This document shows, one piece after another, positions 38,522 through 55,353 of a stretch of DNA of 64,000 nucleotides. Positions within the stretch are counted from its first letter, which is position 1. Each line of letters opens with the position of its first letter. The stretch comes from a virus. Under the pieces are notes generated by a model. The model ran no database searches, was not told the DNA's origin, and was given only the letters and a program-made list of their open reading frames with translations. A program made the position numbers and the translations under genes. The DNA is taken from positions 1 to 64,000 of IMG/VR virus record IMGVR_UViG_3300032093_000012; one strand, given 5' to 3'.

Positions 38522-38749
38522 TTAAATTGGAAGTCTTGCACTCTTCTTCATGAAATTAAGATTCTCTGCTTCGTATTGAAGCTTTGATTTCATCACTGGA
38601 TCTTTCTTAATAATGCTAGCCAAGAACTCAATCTCTAGTCCTGACTTCTCACAGTAGTGCACGATCGCATCGATATACTCTATGTTTTTATCTCTCACTA
38701 AGTTCTCGATCTCTTGCACATAGTTCACATTAAAAATAAGATCTTTCAT
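38522..38749 (-). CDS. 33: Late transcription co-activator, T4 gp33-like
   Basis: This is a 75-aa protein (T4 gp33 is 112 aa) starting MKDLIFNVNYVQEIENLVRD. It has the compact helical pattern YIDAIVHYCEKSGLEIEFLA, SIIKKDPVMKSKLQYEAENL, NFMKK found in marine T4-like gp33 proteins. gp33 links the sliding clamp and host RNA polymerase at TATAAATA promoters, several of which occur in this window. It lies immediately upstream of gp59, as in T4. Confidence 0.78.
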   Translation of the reverse strand: MKDLIFNVNYVQEIENLVRDKNIEYIDAIVHYCEKSGLEIEFLASIIKKDPVMKSKLQYEAENLNFMKKSARLPI

Positions 38750-38864: not shown

Positions 38865-38975
38865 TTAATGATTGTTATATTGCTTACGCCAAAGCCAAGA
38901 GTTGAACTGTGTCGTCTTATGACCAATCCAATCAAGAAAATTGCTATTCCAAAACCAATGGTTATATCTACCCAT
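38865..38975 (-). CDS. Trp-rich 36-residue peptide between tRNA genes
   Basis: The ORF starts at the ATG at 38975 with GGGAG six bases upstream, a strong ribosome-binding site, and ends with TAA at 38865-38867. The peptide reads MGRYNHWFWNSNFLDWIGHK, then TTQFNSWLWRKQYNNH. It has five Trp residues and no hydrophobic stretch long enough for a membrane helix. It fills the gap between the class II tRNA and tRNA-Arg. A second Trp-rich small ORF lies in the nearby tmRNA spacer. Function unknown. Confidence 0.55.
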   Translation of the reverse strand: MGRYNHWFWNSNFLDWIGHKTTQFNSWLWRKQYNNH

Positions 38976-38996: not shown

Positions 38997-39073
38997 TGGC
39001 GATCACTGATGGATTCGAACCATCGACCCACAGCTTAGAAGGCTGTTGCTCTATCCTGCTGAGCTAAGTGACC
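38997..39073 (-). tRNA. tRNA-Arg (UCU)
   Basis: Acceptor GGTCACT pairs with AGTGATC, discriminator G, encoded CCA. Anticodon stem-loop ACAGC-CTTCTAA-GCTGT gives anticodon UCU, reading AGA. The T-arm GATGG-TTCGAAT-CCATC is canonical. AGA is a codon favoured by AT-rich phage genes. Confidence 0.93.
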
Positions 39074-39083
39074 AATAAACTGT

Positions 39084-39228
39084 GGTGGGGATTCTGTTTC
39101 CAAGCTCCCCACCGAGCTCATGCTTAGGCAGCTACTGCCATAGCGAAAGGTGCATTATCGTTTGCATCTATACGTTGCTTTTGGTCTCTTCGTACTTTTA
39201 CTACGCACGTCGATCCTATTTCGCCCCC
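39084..39228 (-). ncRNA. tmRNA coding piece with proteolysis tag ANDNAPFAMAVAA
   Basis: The piece starts at G 39228 (5' acceptor half) with the D-like GGATCGACG. The tag frame runs from the resume codon GCA at 39165 to TAA at 39124, coding A-NDNAPFAMAVAA. The bases just before the resume codon (TATAGAT) keep the UAG determinant also present in the E. coli tmRNA. A strong hairpin GGTGGGGA...TCCCCACC (39113-39084) probably marks the 3' end, 10 bases before tRNA-Arg. The hydrophobic AVAA end is typical for ClpXP recognition. Confidence 0.9.
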
Positions 39229-39240
39229 AACATAAACACA

Positions 39241-39342
39241 TTACATACAAAGATCTTCATACAAAGAAGTGTGCTTGCGATGTCTAGCAAGATCACCATA
39301 GTATGGTGCATTTGTAAACCAATTCCAAACAAGCCAAATCAT
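39241..39342 (-). CDS. 33-codon Trp-rich ORF nested in the tmRNA spacer
   Basis: The ATG at 39342 is preceded by AGGA at 8 bases; the frame ends with TAA at 39241-39243. The peptide is MIWLVWNWFTNAPYYGDLAR, then HRKHTSLYEDLCM. The first nine residues are strongly hydrophobic and aromatic, the rest polar. The ORF fits wholly inside the ~132-base segment (39229-39360) between the CCA end of the acceptor piece and the 5' end of the coding piece. It would be translated only from unprocessed precursor or from the excised spacer. Function unknown. Confidence 0.55.
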   Translation of the reverse strand: MIWLVWNWFTNAPYYGDLARHRKHTSLYEDLCM

Positions 39343-39360
39343 TGTAGTATCCTGTGTTTA

Positions 39361-39430
39361 TGGTGGAGGCGGCGGGTACTGCCCCCGCGTCCGAAACGTT
39401 TATTCTGAACGCCTCAACGACCTCAGCATA
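39361..39430 (-). ncRNA. tmRNA acceptor piece
   Basis: This segment contains the T-arm, the 3' half of the acceptor stem (CGCCTCC), discriminator A and CCA at 39363-39361. The T-stem is GCGGG/CCCGC (39388-39372), but the loop is GGCAGTA rather than the usual TTCRANY. The 5' end near 39427-39430 coincides with the start predicted from the late promoter at 39433-39440. Confidence 0.88.
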
Positions 39431-39432
39431 GT

Positions 39433-39440
39433 TATTTATA
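39433..39440 (-). promoter_or_regulatory. T4-type late promoter for the tmRNA
   Basis: An exact TATAAATA on the minus strand, with predicted start near 39427. This is right at the 5' end of the tmRNA acceptor piece, suggesting that tmRNA and the tRNAs downstream of it are expressed late. Confidence 0.65.
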
Positions 39441-39443
39441 CCA

Positions 39444-39878
39444 CTACTGTCTAATGTTGTAAACAGTTAATTTGTCTTTTTCTACTTTTAATGTACAACT
39501 TTTAATATCTTTAAAACGCGATCCACCGAAGCGTGAGTAGTCACGTCCACCATCTACAAAGAAATCACCGTAGTCTTTATAGTCATGACGATAACGGGAG
39601 TAATATGCAGTATCATCTACGATGATACCATAGAATGGTTCAGTAGCACTAATACCATTAGAGATCATGACATGACCGATATCGTCGAACCAGATAGCAA
39701 AATAGTTCGAGCCTTCTGGATGTGGTTCTTCTGTATAAAAGATAGAGACAGGAAAATTACACCAGTCGCCTTTCTTATTTTTAAGACAACTCTCAAACAC
39801 AAACTTACCGTTGTATTTCTTTTCGATAAGTTCTAGTTGTGCATGAGTAAACATGCTACATTCATTGATGATCTTCAT
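39444..39878 (-). CDS. Conserved-looking hypothetical protein
   Basis: This is a 144-aa soluble protein beginning MKIINECSMFTHAQLELIEK. It contains HPEGSNYFAIWFDDIGHVMI, then FYGIIVDDTAYYSRYRHDYK, DYGDFFVDGGRDYSRFG. It is rich in Tyr, Asp and Gly, with no signal peptide. Its start overlaps the end of the 377-aa gene by four bases, so the two are co-transcribed from the promoter at 41031-41058. I do not recognise a family. Being in an early-promoter operon, a host-takeover role is possible but unproven. Confidence 0.7.
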   Translation of the reverse strand: MKIINECSMFTHAQLELIEKKYNGKFVFESCLKNKKGDWCNFPVSIFYTEEPHPEGSNYFAIWFDDIGHVMISNGISATEPFYGIIVDDTAYYSRYRHDYKDYGDFFVDGGRDYSRFGGSRFKDIKSCTLKVEKDKLTVYNIRQ

Positions 39879-49580: not shown

Positions 49581-50645
49581 CTATTTTAATAACTCTTCTT
49601 TATAAAAGCTTTCTAATTTAATACCATCTTGTGTAAACTTTACAAGATTCTTTAAACTCTTTTCATTGATTTGCTTCTTAATGATAGCGTATGCTTTAGT
49701 CATATCATCACCAATAAACCATTCGTAATCACCACTATCATCATCTAAAGCTTTCTTTGCAGCAGGATCAGCTAGCATCTTTTTAATTGATGCTCTAATA
49801 TGTTCTGCATTTGGATTTGACTTACCAACCCATAGGCTCTTCTGTAGAACATCTCTAAAGTTCTTTACAAGAACATAAGCATCATAGAATTCACCTGATG
49901 GTGCTACTCCCCACTTTTCTTTATAGAGATCTTCGAAGTGATTGGTATTGTAGTTTTTGTCTTTTACGATCTTACCGGTCTTAAGATCAAGAACACCATG
50001 AGAGAACCAAAGCTTGTAATCACCTTTCTCGATCATTGGATTAATAAACTTAAGATGAGATGAATACGTCTCACGCACTGTATTAAGTTCACCACGAAGA
50101 GCAGCAAGTCTTGCCTCTGCTGGTTTCATTCCCTTAACAAAAATCATCTTATCATTATAACACTTGATGTATGCATCCATGTTTGGTTGTGGCCCACAGA
50201 TCATCATAACAATTGCCATAACATCTGGTCTTCTACCTGATGTAGAACCAAACTTTACTTTTTCTTTATAAGGATCAAACTTAGTGCTATGACTTACTAC
50301 AATATTTAAGTTAACAAGACCAATTGGTTCATAGTGCTTATAATCATAGTCGACTTTATCTGTCAAGAAACTCTCAGCATTTCCACCGTGTGCAACCATG
50401 ATTGCATATGGATCTTTCTGCAACTCATTATGAAATCTATTGAATCCAGGAATATCATTAGCACCCGGAATATGTTCTACAATAACTTTAGTACCAATAA
50501 ACTTTTCAAGATGTTGAGCAATGATGTTTGCCCAAACTGATGTGCCACCGCCCGGTTCTTGTGGAACGATTAGTCTATATGATTGTTGTGCATAAACTGT
50601 TGTTGAAAACAATAGTGCCATGAAAAACGCTAATAATCTATGCAT
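49581..50645 (-). CDS. tctC: Tripartite tricarboxylate transporter solute-binding protein (TctC)
   Basis: This is a 354-aa protein with a clear signal peptide (MHRLLAFFMALLFSTTVYA, cleavage near residue 19). The mature start YRLIVPQEPGGGTSVWANII is the TctC/Bug family pattern, and the two-lobed length is normal. TctC binds an organic acid in the periplasm and delivers it to TctA/TctB. The membrane partner TctA is at 52242-53693 in the same operon. The presence of binding protein plus permease suggests functional uptake during infection. Confidence 0.85.
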   Translation of the reverse strand: MHRLLAFFMALLFSTTVYAQQSYRLIVPQEPGGGTSVWANIIAQHLEKFIGTKVIVEHIPGANDIPGFNRFHNELQKDPYAIMVAHGGNAESFLTDKVDYDYKHYEPIGLVNLNIVVSHSTKFDPYKEKVKFGSTSGRRPDVMAIVMMICGPQPNMDAYIKCYNDKMIFVKGMKPAEARLAALRGELNTVRETYSSHLKFINPMIEKGDYKLWFSHGVLDLKTGKIVKDKNYNTNHFEDLYKEKWGVAPSGEFYDAYVLVKNFRDVLQKSLWVGKSNPNAEHIRASIKKMLADPAAKKALDDDSGDYEWFIGDDMTKAYAIIKKQINEKSLKNLVKFTQDGIKLESFYKEELLK

Positions 50646-50648
50646 AGT

Positions 50649-51518
50649 TCACTCCGTGTATGTTATAACATGAATTTTAGTTATACCAAATAATTCTTTT
50701 TTAAGTTGTTCAATATCATTAGTAATAACTTTACCAACAACACCTTTACCTATTGTTGTTTCTAGATTATTTATATCTATATCAATAGATTTAAGATAAT
50801 CTTTTTTTTCTCTTAACCACATGAATAAATTTTTTGCAGTATTTTTACCTATAAAATCATCTAAAACTATATTAAAATCTGAACTTATCTTATGTTGTGG
50901 TAAAATATTTTCATCACCAACATAATCGTCTTGATCTTTAAATACATCAAAAAGATCTTTACCTTTATGACAATATTTTAAATATACATCACCTGCTTTT
51001 ACTCTAGGATAAAAAGCTTTCTTTTCTTCTAAAGTCATTTCTCTAGTAGGTCTATTTTTATAGCTTACAGTAATTTTTGCTGTGTGTCTTTTAGCAATGA
51101 ATCCTTCGTATCTATGAATCAATACATTGAACAACGTTACAGCATCTTTTACTTCTCTTGGAGAATTAATATACCACTCTGGTGGACTTTCATCTTTACC
51201 TCTTAATTGCTCAAAAAATGTATGAAGATAATTCATAGCTTCTTGATCAGGATTTAAATCCAATTTATAATTAATAATATTATCATATGAATTAACTACG
51301 TCAATGCACTCATTCATTTTTATTATAGTATTTTCTGGTGACCACTCGTCATTGAGATGATATATCCTATCTGTCTCAACTAACCAACAATTTTTACTTA
51401 AGATTGCTTCTTTAAGTAAAGCTGCCCATGATTGACCAAGAATATTATTTGCAGGTTCTATGTCAATTTTATGCATAGAACCTGTTTTTTCATTTAAAAG
51501 ATAAAGGTGAAATAACAT
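50649..51518 (-). CDS. Hypothetical protein between transporter genes
   Basis: This is a 289-aa soluble protein. It overlaps the previous gene by 29 bases; an internal ATG at 51476 (MHKIDIEPANNI) preceded by AGG could be the true start. Central features are NPDQEAMNYLHTFFEQLRGK, PPEWYINSPREVKDAVTLFN and a C-terminal domain rich in Lys, Asp and aromatic residues. No recognised catalytic motif. Placement between a 2OG-Fe(II) oxygenase-like gene and tctC suggests a shared pathway, but this is inference. Confidence 0.65.
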   Translation of the reverse strand: MLFHLYLLNEKTGSMHKIDIEPANNILGQSWAALLKEAILSKNCWLVETDRIYHLNDEWSPENTIIKMNECIDVVNSYDNIINYKLDLNPDQEAMNYLHTFFEQLRGKDESPPEWYINSPREVKDAVTLFNVLIHRYEGFIAKRHTAKITVSYKNRPTREMTLEEKKAFYPRVKAGDVYLKYCHKGKDLFDVFKDQDDYVGDENILPQHKISSDFNIVLDDFIGKNTAKNLFMWLREKKDYLKSIDIDINNLETTIGKGVVGKVITNDIEQLKKELFGITKIHVITYTE

Positions 51519-52245
51519 GATAAAATGGACCCAAGTCTCTAGCTTTATTTAATAGTTCATTAGTTTTTGTAGTTGTGTAACCGGTAATTTGCAACATCGG
51601 TCTATCATCCCAACCCATGTTTGCTGTACAATGTGGAATATCTTTCCATTCCCATGTGATGCAATCACCTGCTAACCACTGCCAATACATGGCATTACCA
51701 AGTTGAAATATTTGTCCTGGCTTCCAGTCATCTAGCATGATAGCAAACCTACGCATGATATCTGGGTTCTCATCCATCTCGGTATTTTTAAAACTATTAT
51801 CTCTTTCAGGTCTAGCAGCAAAGTTATCGATATGTAGATGAAGCATCTGACCAGTCTTTTGGTTATGAAACTTGATAGCAGGATTTTCTATACCAAGATA
51901 TTCAGCAATGTATTTAAATACTGGTTCATCATCTGCTGCAGCTCTTAAAAATATTTCTTGATTTGGATCAGCACCTGCTCTGATCAAATCTTGTTGTTCT
52001 GCAGAAGCAGAATATAATCCTTCTTGTGCAATCTTTGGATTAAAATTGTTTCGAGTTGCCCATGTGCTTGCCTGTGCAACTGGAATATATTTTTCAATAA
52101 CATTTTTAAAATAAAAATGAAAGTTACCAACAAATGTATAGCTATCTTTACCGTGCTCAGGATCTCTCATATTATCAAAGTGCCATTTACTTTGACTCTT
52201 CATATATTCCCAACGACTTCCATTCCAATCTTGATAATTTGTCAT
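51490..52245 (-). CDS. 2OG-Fe(II) oxygenase-like protein
   Basis: This is a 251-aa protein. A jelly-roll iron site is visible: H138-x-D140 (LHLHIDN), H205 in IPHCTAN and an Arg215 in DDRPMLQITG that would bind 2-oxoglutarate. The region before (AIMLDDWKPGQIFQLGNAMY) is typical for the barrel strands. Such enzymes hydroxylate small molecules, proteins or nucleic acids. It sits between a transporter permease (overlapping by 4 bases) and an unknown gene. The substrate may be linked to the transported organic acid, but this is speculative. Confidence 0.7.
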   Translation of the reverse strand: MTNYQDWNGSRWEYMKSQSKWHFDNMRDPEHGKDSYTFVGNFHFYFKNVIEKYIPVAQASTWATRNNFNPKIAQEGLYSASAEQQDLIRAGADPNQEIFLRAAADDEPVFKYIAEYLGIENPAIKFHNQKTGQMLHLHIDNFAARPERDNSFKNTEMDENPDIMRRFAIMLDDWKPGQIFQLGNAMYWQWLAGDCITWEWKDIPHCTANMGWDDRPMLQITGYTTTKTNELLNKARDLGPFYHVISPLSFK

Positions 52246-53693
52246 GTATATGTTATCCTTGTCTTGTTAAAGAATATTCCATAGATTGCTAGCATAATAG
52301 ATACTATTATTAAAGTCAATGATATTGGTCTTGTAAAGACTGTGTACCAATCAAATAAAGTTGTATATTGATAGTACATTTTTTCTATCTGATCTGATAA
52401 AACAAACCCAATAATAAATGCAGCTCTACTTATACTAAAGTGTTTTAATAAGAAACCTAAAACTATGAAGACTGCTAAGATAAAATAGTCTTCCCAATAA
52501 CCAGTATACTGCACACAGCTCCACACCAATAGCGCAGATAAAACATAGAACCATATAGAGAATGGTATCTTAAATATATAAGTGATATATTTAATCATGA
52601 CCATAGATACAGCAAATGTTAAAACTAATGAAGCCATATAACTATAGTTCAGAGCTTTAAAGAAAGTCATATCTTTTAATAAGTTTGGTGTTCCTAGTTC
52701 AATACCAACTAAGATAAACAAACTTAAGATGATAGCTTCAAATGGTGCTGCTGGTATACCAAACAAAACTGTTGGTATATATCCAGTTGCTTTCTGAGAG
52801 TTATTAGCACCCTCACAACCAATAACACCCTTGATATTACCTTCACCAAACGGTATCTTTTCATTTTTATTTATTGCTACAGTCTGGCTATACGCTACCC
52901 AGTCTGCGACTGCACCACCAACACCAGGCAATACACCAATAAATGCACCGATAGCACCTCCACGAATGCTATCTTTCCAATGTATGAAAGTATCTTTTAT
53001 TCCTTGTATAGTTTGATTCTTTGCATCAACTATCTTTGTAGTCGTAGCATTATATCCTGTTCTATATGCTTCAATTAGTTCAGGAAATGCTAAGACTCCT
53101 GCGAGAACCGGCATGATTTGAATACCAGCTTTTATGTATTCCCAATCTAATGTCCATCTAGCTGCATTAGTAGTTGGATGTTGACCAACCATTCCAAGAA
53201 ATATACCAAGACATAGACCAAATATTCCTCTCACCCACTTATCACTTGTTATAAATGTAACGCAAGTGAAAGCTAATATCAGAAAACATAATAGTTCAGG
53301 AATACCAAAAGCTAATACTGCTTTAGAATAGAACGGCAAAAAAACAAGAGCGATGATTCCGAATATAAAACCATTCAAAGTTGATGTAGTAATAGCAGCA
53401 CTTAATGCACGAGCCGCTTGACCCTTTTTAGCCAAAGGAAAGCCATCAACGATGGTTGCTGCAGATCCGGATGCTCCGGGTATATTGAGAACAATACTTG
53501 CAAAGCTATCACCTATGGTGCTTGCTACAACTATAGCTGTCGTGAAAACTACTAGTGTGTATGGATCTGCTCTAAAGAAATCTAAAAAGCCGTAAATGGT
53601 AATTAGCGCAGTGCTAGCACCGGCGACTGGTATCAAACCAATTAAAAATCCATATGCTGTACCAAACAGCAACCATAATATATAATCAAACAT
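52242..53693 (-). CDS. tctA: Tripartite tricarboxylate transporter permease (TctA)
   Basis: This is a 483-aa integral membrane protein (bacterial TctA is ~500 aa) with about ten to twelve hydrophobic segments. The N-terminal block GFLIGLIPVAGASTALITIY, then FASIVLNIPGASGSAATIVD and a second half with FIGVLPGVGGAVADWVAYSQ show the conserved inverted-repeat motifs. TctA with TctB and TctC imports organic acids with sodium or proton. No TctB of usual size is present; the 73-aa membrane protein at 54423-54644 is the only small membrane candidate nearby, but it does not resemble TctB. Confidence 0.9.
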   Translation of the reverse strand: MFDYILWLLFGTAYGFLIGLIPVAGASTALITIYGFLDFFRADPYTLVVFTTAIVVASTIGDSFASIVLNIPGASGSAATIVDGFPLAKKGQAARALSAAITTSTLNGFIFGIIALVFLPFYSKAVLAFGIPELLCFLILAFTCVTFITSDKWVRGIFGLCLGIFLGMVGQHPTTNAARWTLDWEYIKAGIQIMPVLAGVLAFPELIEAYRTGYNATTTKIVDAKNQTIQGIKDTFIHWKDSIRGGAIGAFIGVLPGVGGAVADWVAYSQTVAINKNEKIPFGEGNIKGVIGCEGANNSQKATGYIPTVLFGIPAAPFEAIILSLFILVGIELGTPNLLKDMTFFKALNYSYMASLVLTFAVSMVMIKYITYIFKIPFSIWFYVLSALLVWSCVQYTGYWEDYFILAVFIVLGFLLKHFSISRAAFIIGFVLSDQIEKMYYQYTTLFDWYTVFTRPISLTLIIVSIMLAIYGIFFNKTRITYT

Positions 53694-54644: not shown

Positions 54645-54790
54645 CAATGTCTAATCACTCCCGCTACAATAAAAATATTAGTTATGATATAGCATAGTAC
54701 TATGGCAGTCCTAATGATAGCAATTAAGTCTGCTTCTTTATCATCATTACTTGCTTTTTCTCCTAGCGATTTTGCCCAGAGTCTCCACAT
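54641..54790 (-). CDS. Small membrane protein (49 aa)
   Basis: The ORF runs from ATG 54790, which overlaps the ClpP stop as TGATG, to TGA 54641. It reads MWRLWAKSLGEKASNDDKEA, then DLIAIIRTAIVLCYIITNIF, then IVAGVIRHW. There is one transmembrane helix at about residues 22-44 and a charged N-terminus. Tight overlaps on both sides support a real gene. Function unknown; it may anchor or modulate the adjacent ClpP or DUF6552-like proteins. Confidence 0.7.
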   Translation of the reverse strand: MWRLWAKSLGEKASNDDKEADLIAIIRTAIVLCYIITNIFIVAGVIRHW

Positions 54791-55353
54791 CAATAGAACT
54801 CTACTATCTCATCTGCTATGCCATACTTTACAGCTTCTTTTGCTGTAAGCCAAACATCTTCTGCCGGGAGAAGGTATTTCTTGATTGATTTTTCATCTAA
54901 ACCAGTACAGCGTTTATAGTGTTCAACAATTCTAGCATGTGTATTATTAAATTCTTTGACACGAGCCATCAACTCGTGTTCTTTACCATAACTACCCCAT
55001 GAATACTGGTGTGAAAGAATGGCAGTATTTCTTGTAACATATCTATGACCCTTTTCGCCAGCAATGAATGTCATAAGACCACAACTAGCAATCTCACCAA
55101 GACCATACGTAAATACTGGAATCTTAGATCCCTTGATAGTGTCGATAAGTGCAAATGCTGAACCAACTTCGCCACCCGGTGAATTGATTATCATCTTAAT
55201 ATGTTTAGGACGATCTTTCCTCATCAAGTTTCTTGCTATGATGAATTCCATTGCATCACCGCATGAACTAGGATCAAAATCTTTATTGAACAATAGATAG
55301 TGATGATCTTCTATACTTGGAATACTTGTAATCTTATCTTCTTTATCACTCAT
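54790..55353 (-). CDS. clpP: ClpP-like serine protease
   Basis: This is a 187-aa protein of ClpP size. The catalytic triad is visible: Ser90 in LGEIASCGL, His115 in ILSHQYSWG and Asp166 in AEDVWLTAKEA. The substrate-binding strand IINSPGGEVGSAFALIDTI is conserved. No signal peptide. Phage ClpP may act with host ClpX or ClpA, and tmRNA-tagged proteins are classic ClpXP substrates, so the phage tmRNA may feed it. It is in an operon with three small genes. Confidence 0.88.
   Translation of the reverse strand: MSDKEDKITSIPSIEDHHYLLFNKDFDPSSCGDAMEFIIARNLMRKDRPKHIKMIINSPGGEVGSAFALIDTIKGSKIPVFTYGLGEIASCGLMTFIAGEKGHRYVTRNTAILSHQYSWGSYGKEHELMARVKEFNNTHARIVEHYKRCTGLDEKSIKKYLLPAEDVWLTAKEAVKYGIADEIVEFY

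Follow-up and report, generated by a model that had tools for sequence, protein, structure and literature searches.

The locus raises two questions: whether a phage really encodes a circularly permuted, two-piece tmRNA here, and what the segment between the two pieces of that gene holds. The window (the whole stretch of DNA analysed, 64 kb) belongs to a virus record of 167,475 bp and has a complete permuted tmRNA on its minus strand, at 39083-39427, as had been predicted from the sequence before our analysis (features are collected in Table 1). ARAGORN reports a permuted tmRNA (tmRNA*) with the tag ANDNAPFAMAVAA on that strand; the outer ends that it gives, 39033 and 39457, are an artefact, an overrun into the tRNA-Arg gene and into upstream sequence. 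The covariance models, which the original prediction had named as a check, are in agreement. Rfam alpha_tmRNA (RF01849) matches 39083-39467 with 111.1 bits (E 1.8e-29; gathering threshold 50) over its full length, positions 1-355 of 355, which bears out the claimed alpha type, and the merged permuted model, tmRNA_permuted (RF04321), matches 39124-39422 with 107.5 bits and ends at the UAA. Folded as a single RNA, 39083-39427 has z = -5.4 relative to 100 shuffles. Both the G3-U70 pair and an encoded CCA can be read in the sequence (GGGGGCG with CGCCTCC plus ACCA), and ARAGORN and Rfam give a tag frame with resume codon and stop (GCA...TAA). The order originally proposed, a T-arm and CCA piece, a spacer, then a G3-U70 piece with the tag, agrees with the sequence and with ARAGORN, and the predicted processing points at 39361 and 39228 coincide with the CCA end and G1 as read here.

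Table 1. Features of the tmRNA locus, in window coordinates, with the basis of each assignment
Feature	Position	Strand	Basis or remark
Acceptor piece, tRNA-like	39361-39427	-	RF01849 and RF04321 alignments, sequence; 5′ end inferred from promoter box
T-arm	39388-39372	-	sequence
Acceptor 3′ strand CGCCTCC	39371-39365	-	sequence
ACCA	39364-39361	-	sequence
Excised intervening spacer, 132 nt	39229-39360	-	between encoded CCA and acceptor G1
Spacer stem 5′ arm TAAACACA	39353-39360	-	pairs with 39240-39233
Shine-Dalgarno-like AGGA, 7 nt before ATG	39350-39353	-	sequence
33-codon ORF MIWLVWNWFTNAPYYGDLARHRKHTSLYEDLCM, HTTKYEDLCM family member	39241-39342	-	family comparison, pN/pS
Spacer stem 3′ arm TGTGTTTA, directly after ORF stop codon	39233-39240	-	sequence and fold
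Coding piece of tmRNA	39083-39228	-	RF01849 alignment reaches 39083
Acceptor 5′ strand GGGGGCG with G3-U70, G1 = 39228	39228-39222	-	sequence
Tag reading frame ANDNAPFAMAVAA and stop	39124-39165	-	ARAGORN; RF04321 ends at UAA
3′ stem GGTGGGG...CCCCACC, inside coding piece	39083-39228	-	RF01849 alignment
TATAAATA, T4-type late-promoter box	39433-39440	-	exact match, predicted promoter
tRNA-Arg(UCU), just downstream of tmRNA	38997-39073	-	ARAGORN; RF00005 68.2 bits
gp33-like late-transcription coactivator, downstream of RNA cluster	38522-38749	-	phrog_254 E 6.5e-16

The tmRNA is genuine, and its kind has been described before, in phages as well. According to the available text of PMC9004378, tmRNAs occur in 402 of 18,146 phage genomes, and 53 of 133 unique phage tmRNA structures are two-piece, 50 of these 53 being marine or aquatic and phage Melnitz being among them; the accessible part of PMC11915505 gives 79 bacteriophage tmRNA sequences. 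Since two-piece phage tmRNAs were already published, the earlier suggestion that they are rarely described in phages does not stand.

What the original prediction did not contain are an ORF in the spacer, an inverted repeat at the spacer ends and a TATAAATA box upstream. The ORF fills the 132-nt spacer (ATG...TAA), its stop abutting the 3′ arm of the spacer stem. Searches of Pfam and PHROG profiles with it gave no match at E <= 1 in either. It belongs to a family that we define by a short N-terminal stretch followed by G-D-[LM]-S-x-H-R-x-H-T-[TS]-x-Y-E-D-L-C-[MK]-stop, the ORF of the window reading GDLARHRKHTSLYEDLCM and then stop. Only one copy was found in this genome; a scan of the collection found relatives encoded on 332 viral contigs, and none of 50,697 phage records was clearly matched, with no credible member in an isolate; the family is an unannotated one. 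In the best 80 relatives and a pattern scan, from which placements were taken, the family lies inside the spacers of at least six unlike phage tmRNAs: besides members in the window's own species (L126, L206, L207) these are L208, L209/L211 (a beta-type tmRNA, 114 bits), L220, L249/L252/L258 and L356, with a divergent member in L120. In L115/L212, L210, L213, L214, L215 and L237 a homologue as long as the window ORF follows shortly after the tmRNA (64% identity for that of L115), and some other contigs have one upstream. The same C-terminal residues are encoded by different codons across the homologues. As uncorrected proportions, with synonymous sites near saturation, pN/pS between the window ORF and homologues in other spacers and outside tmRNAs is 0.30-0.46 (0.55 for the most distant pair); pairs of other spacer ORFs give 0.15-0.47, likewise uncorrected. 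The compared pairs are thus under purifying selection, and a coding function of the spacer ORF is well supported by these sequence comparisons.

The settings of 106 distinct family peptides offer some indication of what the predicted 33-residue protein might do. Spacers contain 8 of them, 7 come shortly after a tmRNA and 24 adjoin holin-like or T4-lysozyme-like genes; the other 67, the majority, have neither a tmRNA nearby nor a clear holin or lysozyme gene as neighbour. For example neighbours, Phage_lysozyme and GTA_holin_3TM have Pfam support, and in L221, L225 and L250 the upstream neighbour resembles the spacer ORF family of L030/L105. Because the neighbours of the relatives include holins, lysozymes and small membrane proteins, an accessory membrane or lysis function is weakly suggested as the best lead.

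Spacer ORFs recur among phage permuted tmRNAs. Permuted tmRNAs fetched from bacterial genomes by the same pattern as the viral set (105 distinct genes) have a median spacer of 34 nt and an ORF of at least 25 codons in 1 of 105; among the viral matches listed, fetched by pattern, the median is 78 nt and 37 of 183 have such an ORF. The viral sets, made up of the matches listed, are selected by pattern and phylogenetically non-independent, and the Fisher p (2.8e-7) is for that reason too small. A first version of the test counted ORFs of at least 25 codons and gave only a weak excess, 30 among the matches listed against a shuffle mean of 15 (maximum 23); spacer coverage and selection were therefore used instead. 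Among the matches listed, 77 viral spacers are 90 nt or longer, and in 36 of these an ORF takes up 60% or more of the length; 300 shuffles that keep the stem arms give 9.5 +/- 2.9 (maximum 17). Further spacer ORF families include WSICAD, DUF6356 (the L016 ORF, over the Pfam cut-off with E 4e-11), a DUF2061-like protein that narrowly misses the cut-off, and a number of small membrane proteins. Two observations concern the arrangement of such ORFs. In L101, L051, L065, L071, L113, L058 and others the WSICAD ORF overlaps, in another frame, an earlier acidic short ORF (e.g. MKEMTSGDSDEESSCKKNIGGDV) with the stronger ribosome-binding site, giving two overlapping genes per spacer; and the 499-nt spacer of L029 has two successive ORFs, one for a KYLSG-type peptide and one for a membrane protein of 120 codons. 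We also note that L430, a contig labelled Bacillus sp. ISL-34, has the alphaproteobacterial-type tmRNA pattern and may be a mislabelled or contaminated assembly.

The spacer of the window is bounded by the inverted repeat TAAACACA/TGTGTTTA. Among the matches listed, a stem score of at least 8 was obtained for 81 of 107 viral spacers, compared with 5% after the halves were swapped between members. The stem is no phage invention: bacterial spacers have paired ends too, shorter and weaker ones, and the phage stem is therefore an enlarged form of a general feature. In unrelated ORFs the ribosome-binding sites lie in or against the 5′ arm and the stop codons against the 3′ arm, and in the SICAD family AAAGGAGATT itself forms the arm, pairing with AATCTCTTTT. 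The spacer as a riboswitch or another known RNA was rejected, Rfam at E <= 1 giving no match within it; the glutamine riboswitch of Melnitz sits after the tmRNA of that phage, outside the spacer.

The closest relatives show how independently the spacer can vary. L126 does not differ from the window. In L127, L128 and L129 the tag is unchanged and the mature tmRNA is 95-99% identical to that of the window, sharing 68-69 of 70 bases in the acceptor piece and 140-145 of 146-147 in the coding piece; in L128, 69/70 and 145/146 mature bases are identical and the spacer is unrelated. Their spacers (87, 93 and 74 nt) align to that of the window no better than unrelated sequence does and carry their own, different paired ends. 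Given near-identical mature tmRNAs with unrelated spacers, the spacer behaves as a swappable cassette; because the ORF is absent from these relatives, it is dispensable. On a tree of the mature tmRNAs, itself built on short sequences, the state of having the family inside the spacer changes at least seven times, in nine rows. We think it quite probable from these comparisons that whole spacers, both stem arms included, pass from phage to phage, and different phages would accordingly hold different small genes there, or none. The ORF-less spacers of 65-93 nt (L127, L128, L129, L115, L002) form long, branched hairpins whose inner stems are short (e.g. CCCAGACGTGGG, CTCGAAAGAG), which are perhaps an unnamed structured RNA.

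The box upstream of the tmRNA starts 80 nt before the CCA end. The same box, TATAAATA, is found upstream of 123 of the 204 viral permuted tmRNAs among the matches listed and of 1 of 103 bacterial ones, and in 2.9% of random 160-nt stretches from the same viral loci. Among the viral matches listed it starts a median of 76 nt before the CCA end (10th-90th percentile, 74-80 nt). At T4 late promoters transcription starts about 6 nt after the box, a spacing that would put the start at about 39427, on or beside the 5′ end of the acceptor piece. A gp33-like protein, one component of the gp33/gp55/gp45 late-promoter machinery, was found in the phage (phrog_254). In Melnitz, too, the box lies 76 nt before the CCA end. 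For that phage the available text of PMC9004378 describes a glutamine riboswitch and a predicted early (sigma-70) promoter of the tmRNA, and neither a spacer ORF nor a late promoter of the tmRNA; the late-promoter box, in itself a sequence match, contradicts the early assignment.

We have good confidence in the following explanation: the locus encodes a permuted two-piece tmRNA of a phage of the T4 superfamily, most likely transcribed late from the TATAAATA promoter, and its excised spacer also serves as a site for small-protein genes. The precursor would fold with the acceptor stem prolonged by the spacer stem, as sequence and fold show, and with the ribosome-binding site, ORF and stop codon in the loop, and the ORF would be translated, from the precursor or from the released spacer, into the 33-residue protein. 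As expected from the tmRNA family, RNase P would cut at G1 and 3′ trimming would proceed to the CCA, giving two mature pieces that, together with host SmpB, would add the tag to stalled proteins. Host SmpB would be needed, since no SmpB gene was found in the 167,475-bp virus record. A stronger version, in which the spacer of late two-piece tmRNAs in T4-like phages of uncultured marine and freshwater bacteria is a dedicated, exchangeable small-protein slot with translation coupled to tmRNA maturation, we regard as rather unlikely. If it were true, one transcript would supply both a ribosome-rescue RNA and a peptide, with the ratio of the two under regulation.

A related possibility is that ORF and tmRNA regulate each other, translation keeping the precursor open and delaying its processing, or folding and processing silencing the ORF, so that the state of translation would set the amount of mature tmRNA. 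The placement of ribosome-binding sites and stop codons against the stem in unrelated ORFs speaks for this, as does the SICAD arm that itself pairs AAAGGAGATT with AATCTCTTTT. So does the Melnitz spacer ORF (L003:2552-2716), which is unannotated, meets no stop codon before the spacer is over and terminates within the coding piece; the spacer, if released, would therefore be a non-stop message. Yet an ORF that fills a short loop will have its ends at the stem with or without regulation, spacer ORFs are missing from many phage tmRNAs, and the HTTKYEDLCM family also occurs far from tmRNAs, so we hold mutual regulation to be doubtful.

That the spacer is non-coding or purely structural and its frame open by chance seems to us extremely unlikely. 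Relatives with near-identical mature tmRNAs do have spacers that lack the ORF and still fold, and ORFs of at least 25 codons are not rare in shuffled spacers of the viral set (the mean of 15 above); but frame, length and C-terminus are conserved and change is mainly synonymous in homologues inside and outside tmRNAs, and long ORFs are in excess over the shuffles. The tmRNA itself might instead serve not in ribosome rescue but as a decoy or inhibitor of the host tmRNA, the role reported for phage DS6A, whose tmRNA is CDS-less (cited in the available text of PMC11915505). Phage tmRNA-like inhibitors exist, and the virus record has no detected SmpB, but the DS6A form lacks a tag, whereas the tmRNA of the window retains a complete tag frame with stop, the G3-U70 pair and all tRNA-like elements; a decoy is very improbable here.

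Known systems resemble this arrangement in part. The Caulobacter-type alphaproteobacterial two-piece tmRNA (RF01849) has the same permuted order, CCA acceptor piece, spacer, coding piece, ANDN... tag and G3-U70, and the T-loop of the window, GGCAGUA, is close to the family consensus GGCgGUA; the 132-nt spacer, conserved small gene and upstream phage late-promoter box set the window tmRNA apart. The ssrA genes of phages Melnitz and Mosig are likewise alpha-type, two-piece, phage-encoded and near a gene of the late-transcription coactivator (PMC9004378), and the annotated SsrA of Mosig is directly followed by a 'late promoter transcription accessory' gene. Melnitz shares both the box and a spacer ORF, although the latter is of another type (KYLSG motif) and reads on into the coding piece, and Mosig has a spacer of about 44 nt with no ORF. 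The accessible part of PMC11915505 describes group I intron tmRNA genes with homing endonuclease genes, in which a protein gene is also nested in a removed segment of the precursor; that segment is a self-splicing intron in the T-loop region, whereas here it is the spacer of a permuted gene with tRNA-type processing, and the spacer proteins are small and not endonuclease-like. The same source gives GCA-2688965, with a tRNA-Ala inside a permuted tmRNA spacer, so a spacer can hold another gene; that is an RNA gene in a single, nominally archaeal case, unlike the recurrent protein-coding cassette seen here. Protein genes in the spacer of permuted tmRNAs were not mentioned in the open-licence literature that we searched, including the available text of PMC9004378 and PMC11915505, and the spacer gene, whole-spacer exchange and the late-promoter box appear to be undescribed there. 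A segment held to be processing waste would thereby become a recurrent site of hidden protein genes; the spacer gene of Melnitz was missed in the published annotation because the stretch was labelled tmRNA. The late-promoter box and spacer ORF together offer a simple handle on when and why phages make their own tmRNA.

The surroundings of the tmRNA are those of a T4-type phage, with gp32, a gp59-type loader, a gp33-like late coactivator and a baseplate wedge protein; the order is tmRNA, tRNA-Arg, small ORF, tRNA-Ile, gp33. Among isolates, the baseplate wedge protein is closest to those of Caulobacter phage Cr30 and Sinorhizobium phages (36-38% identity), and gp32 to those of Prochlorococcus and other marine phages (about 61%). 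No permuted tmRNA was found in Cr30 and phiM12, the nearest T4-like isolates searched. The original prediction of an alphaproteobacterial host is plausible from the wedge protein; the tmRNA type does not settle the matter, since Melnitz, with a tmRNA of alpha type, infects a bacterium outside the alphaproteobacteria (available text of PMC9004378). It had further been suggested that tagged products might feed a phage ClpP. A ClpP-family protein is indeed present (54790-55353, minus strand; PF00574, 110.9 bits), and nothing was found linking it to the tag. Its best PHROGs match is 'head maturation protease'; as separate S77 (gp21-type) prohead proteases occur in two places in the record, it need not be a head protease despite that match.

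A second small gene amid the stable RNA genes, a 36-codon ORF MGRYNHWFWNSNFLDWIGHKTTQFNSWLWRKQYNNH (38865-38975, minus strand), lies between tRNA-Arg and tRNA-Ile, with homologues of 50-56% identity in the same place in L127, L128, L129 and L097. At 49581-53693 on the minus strand are four consecutive genes of 251-483 codons with no PHROG match.
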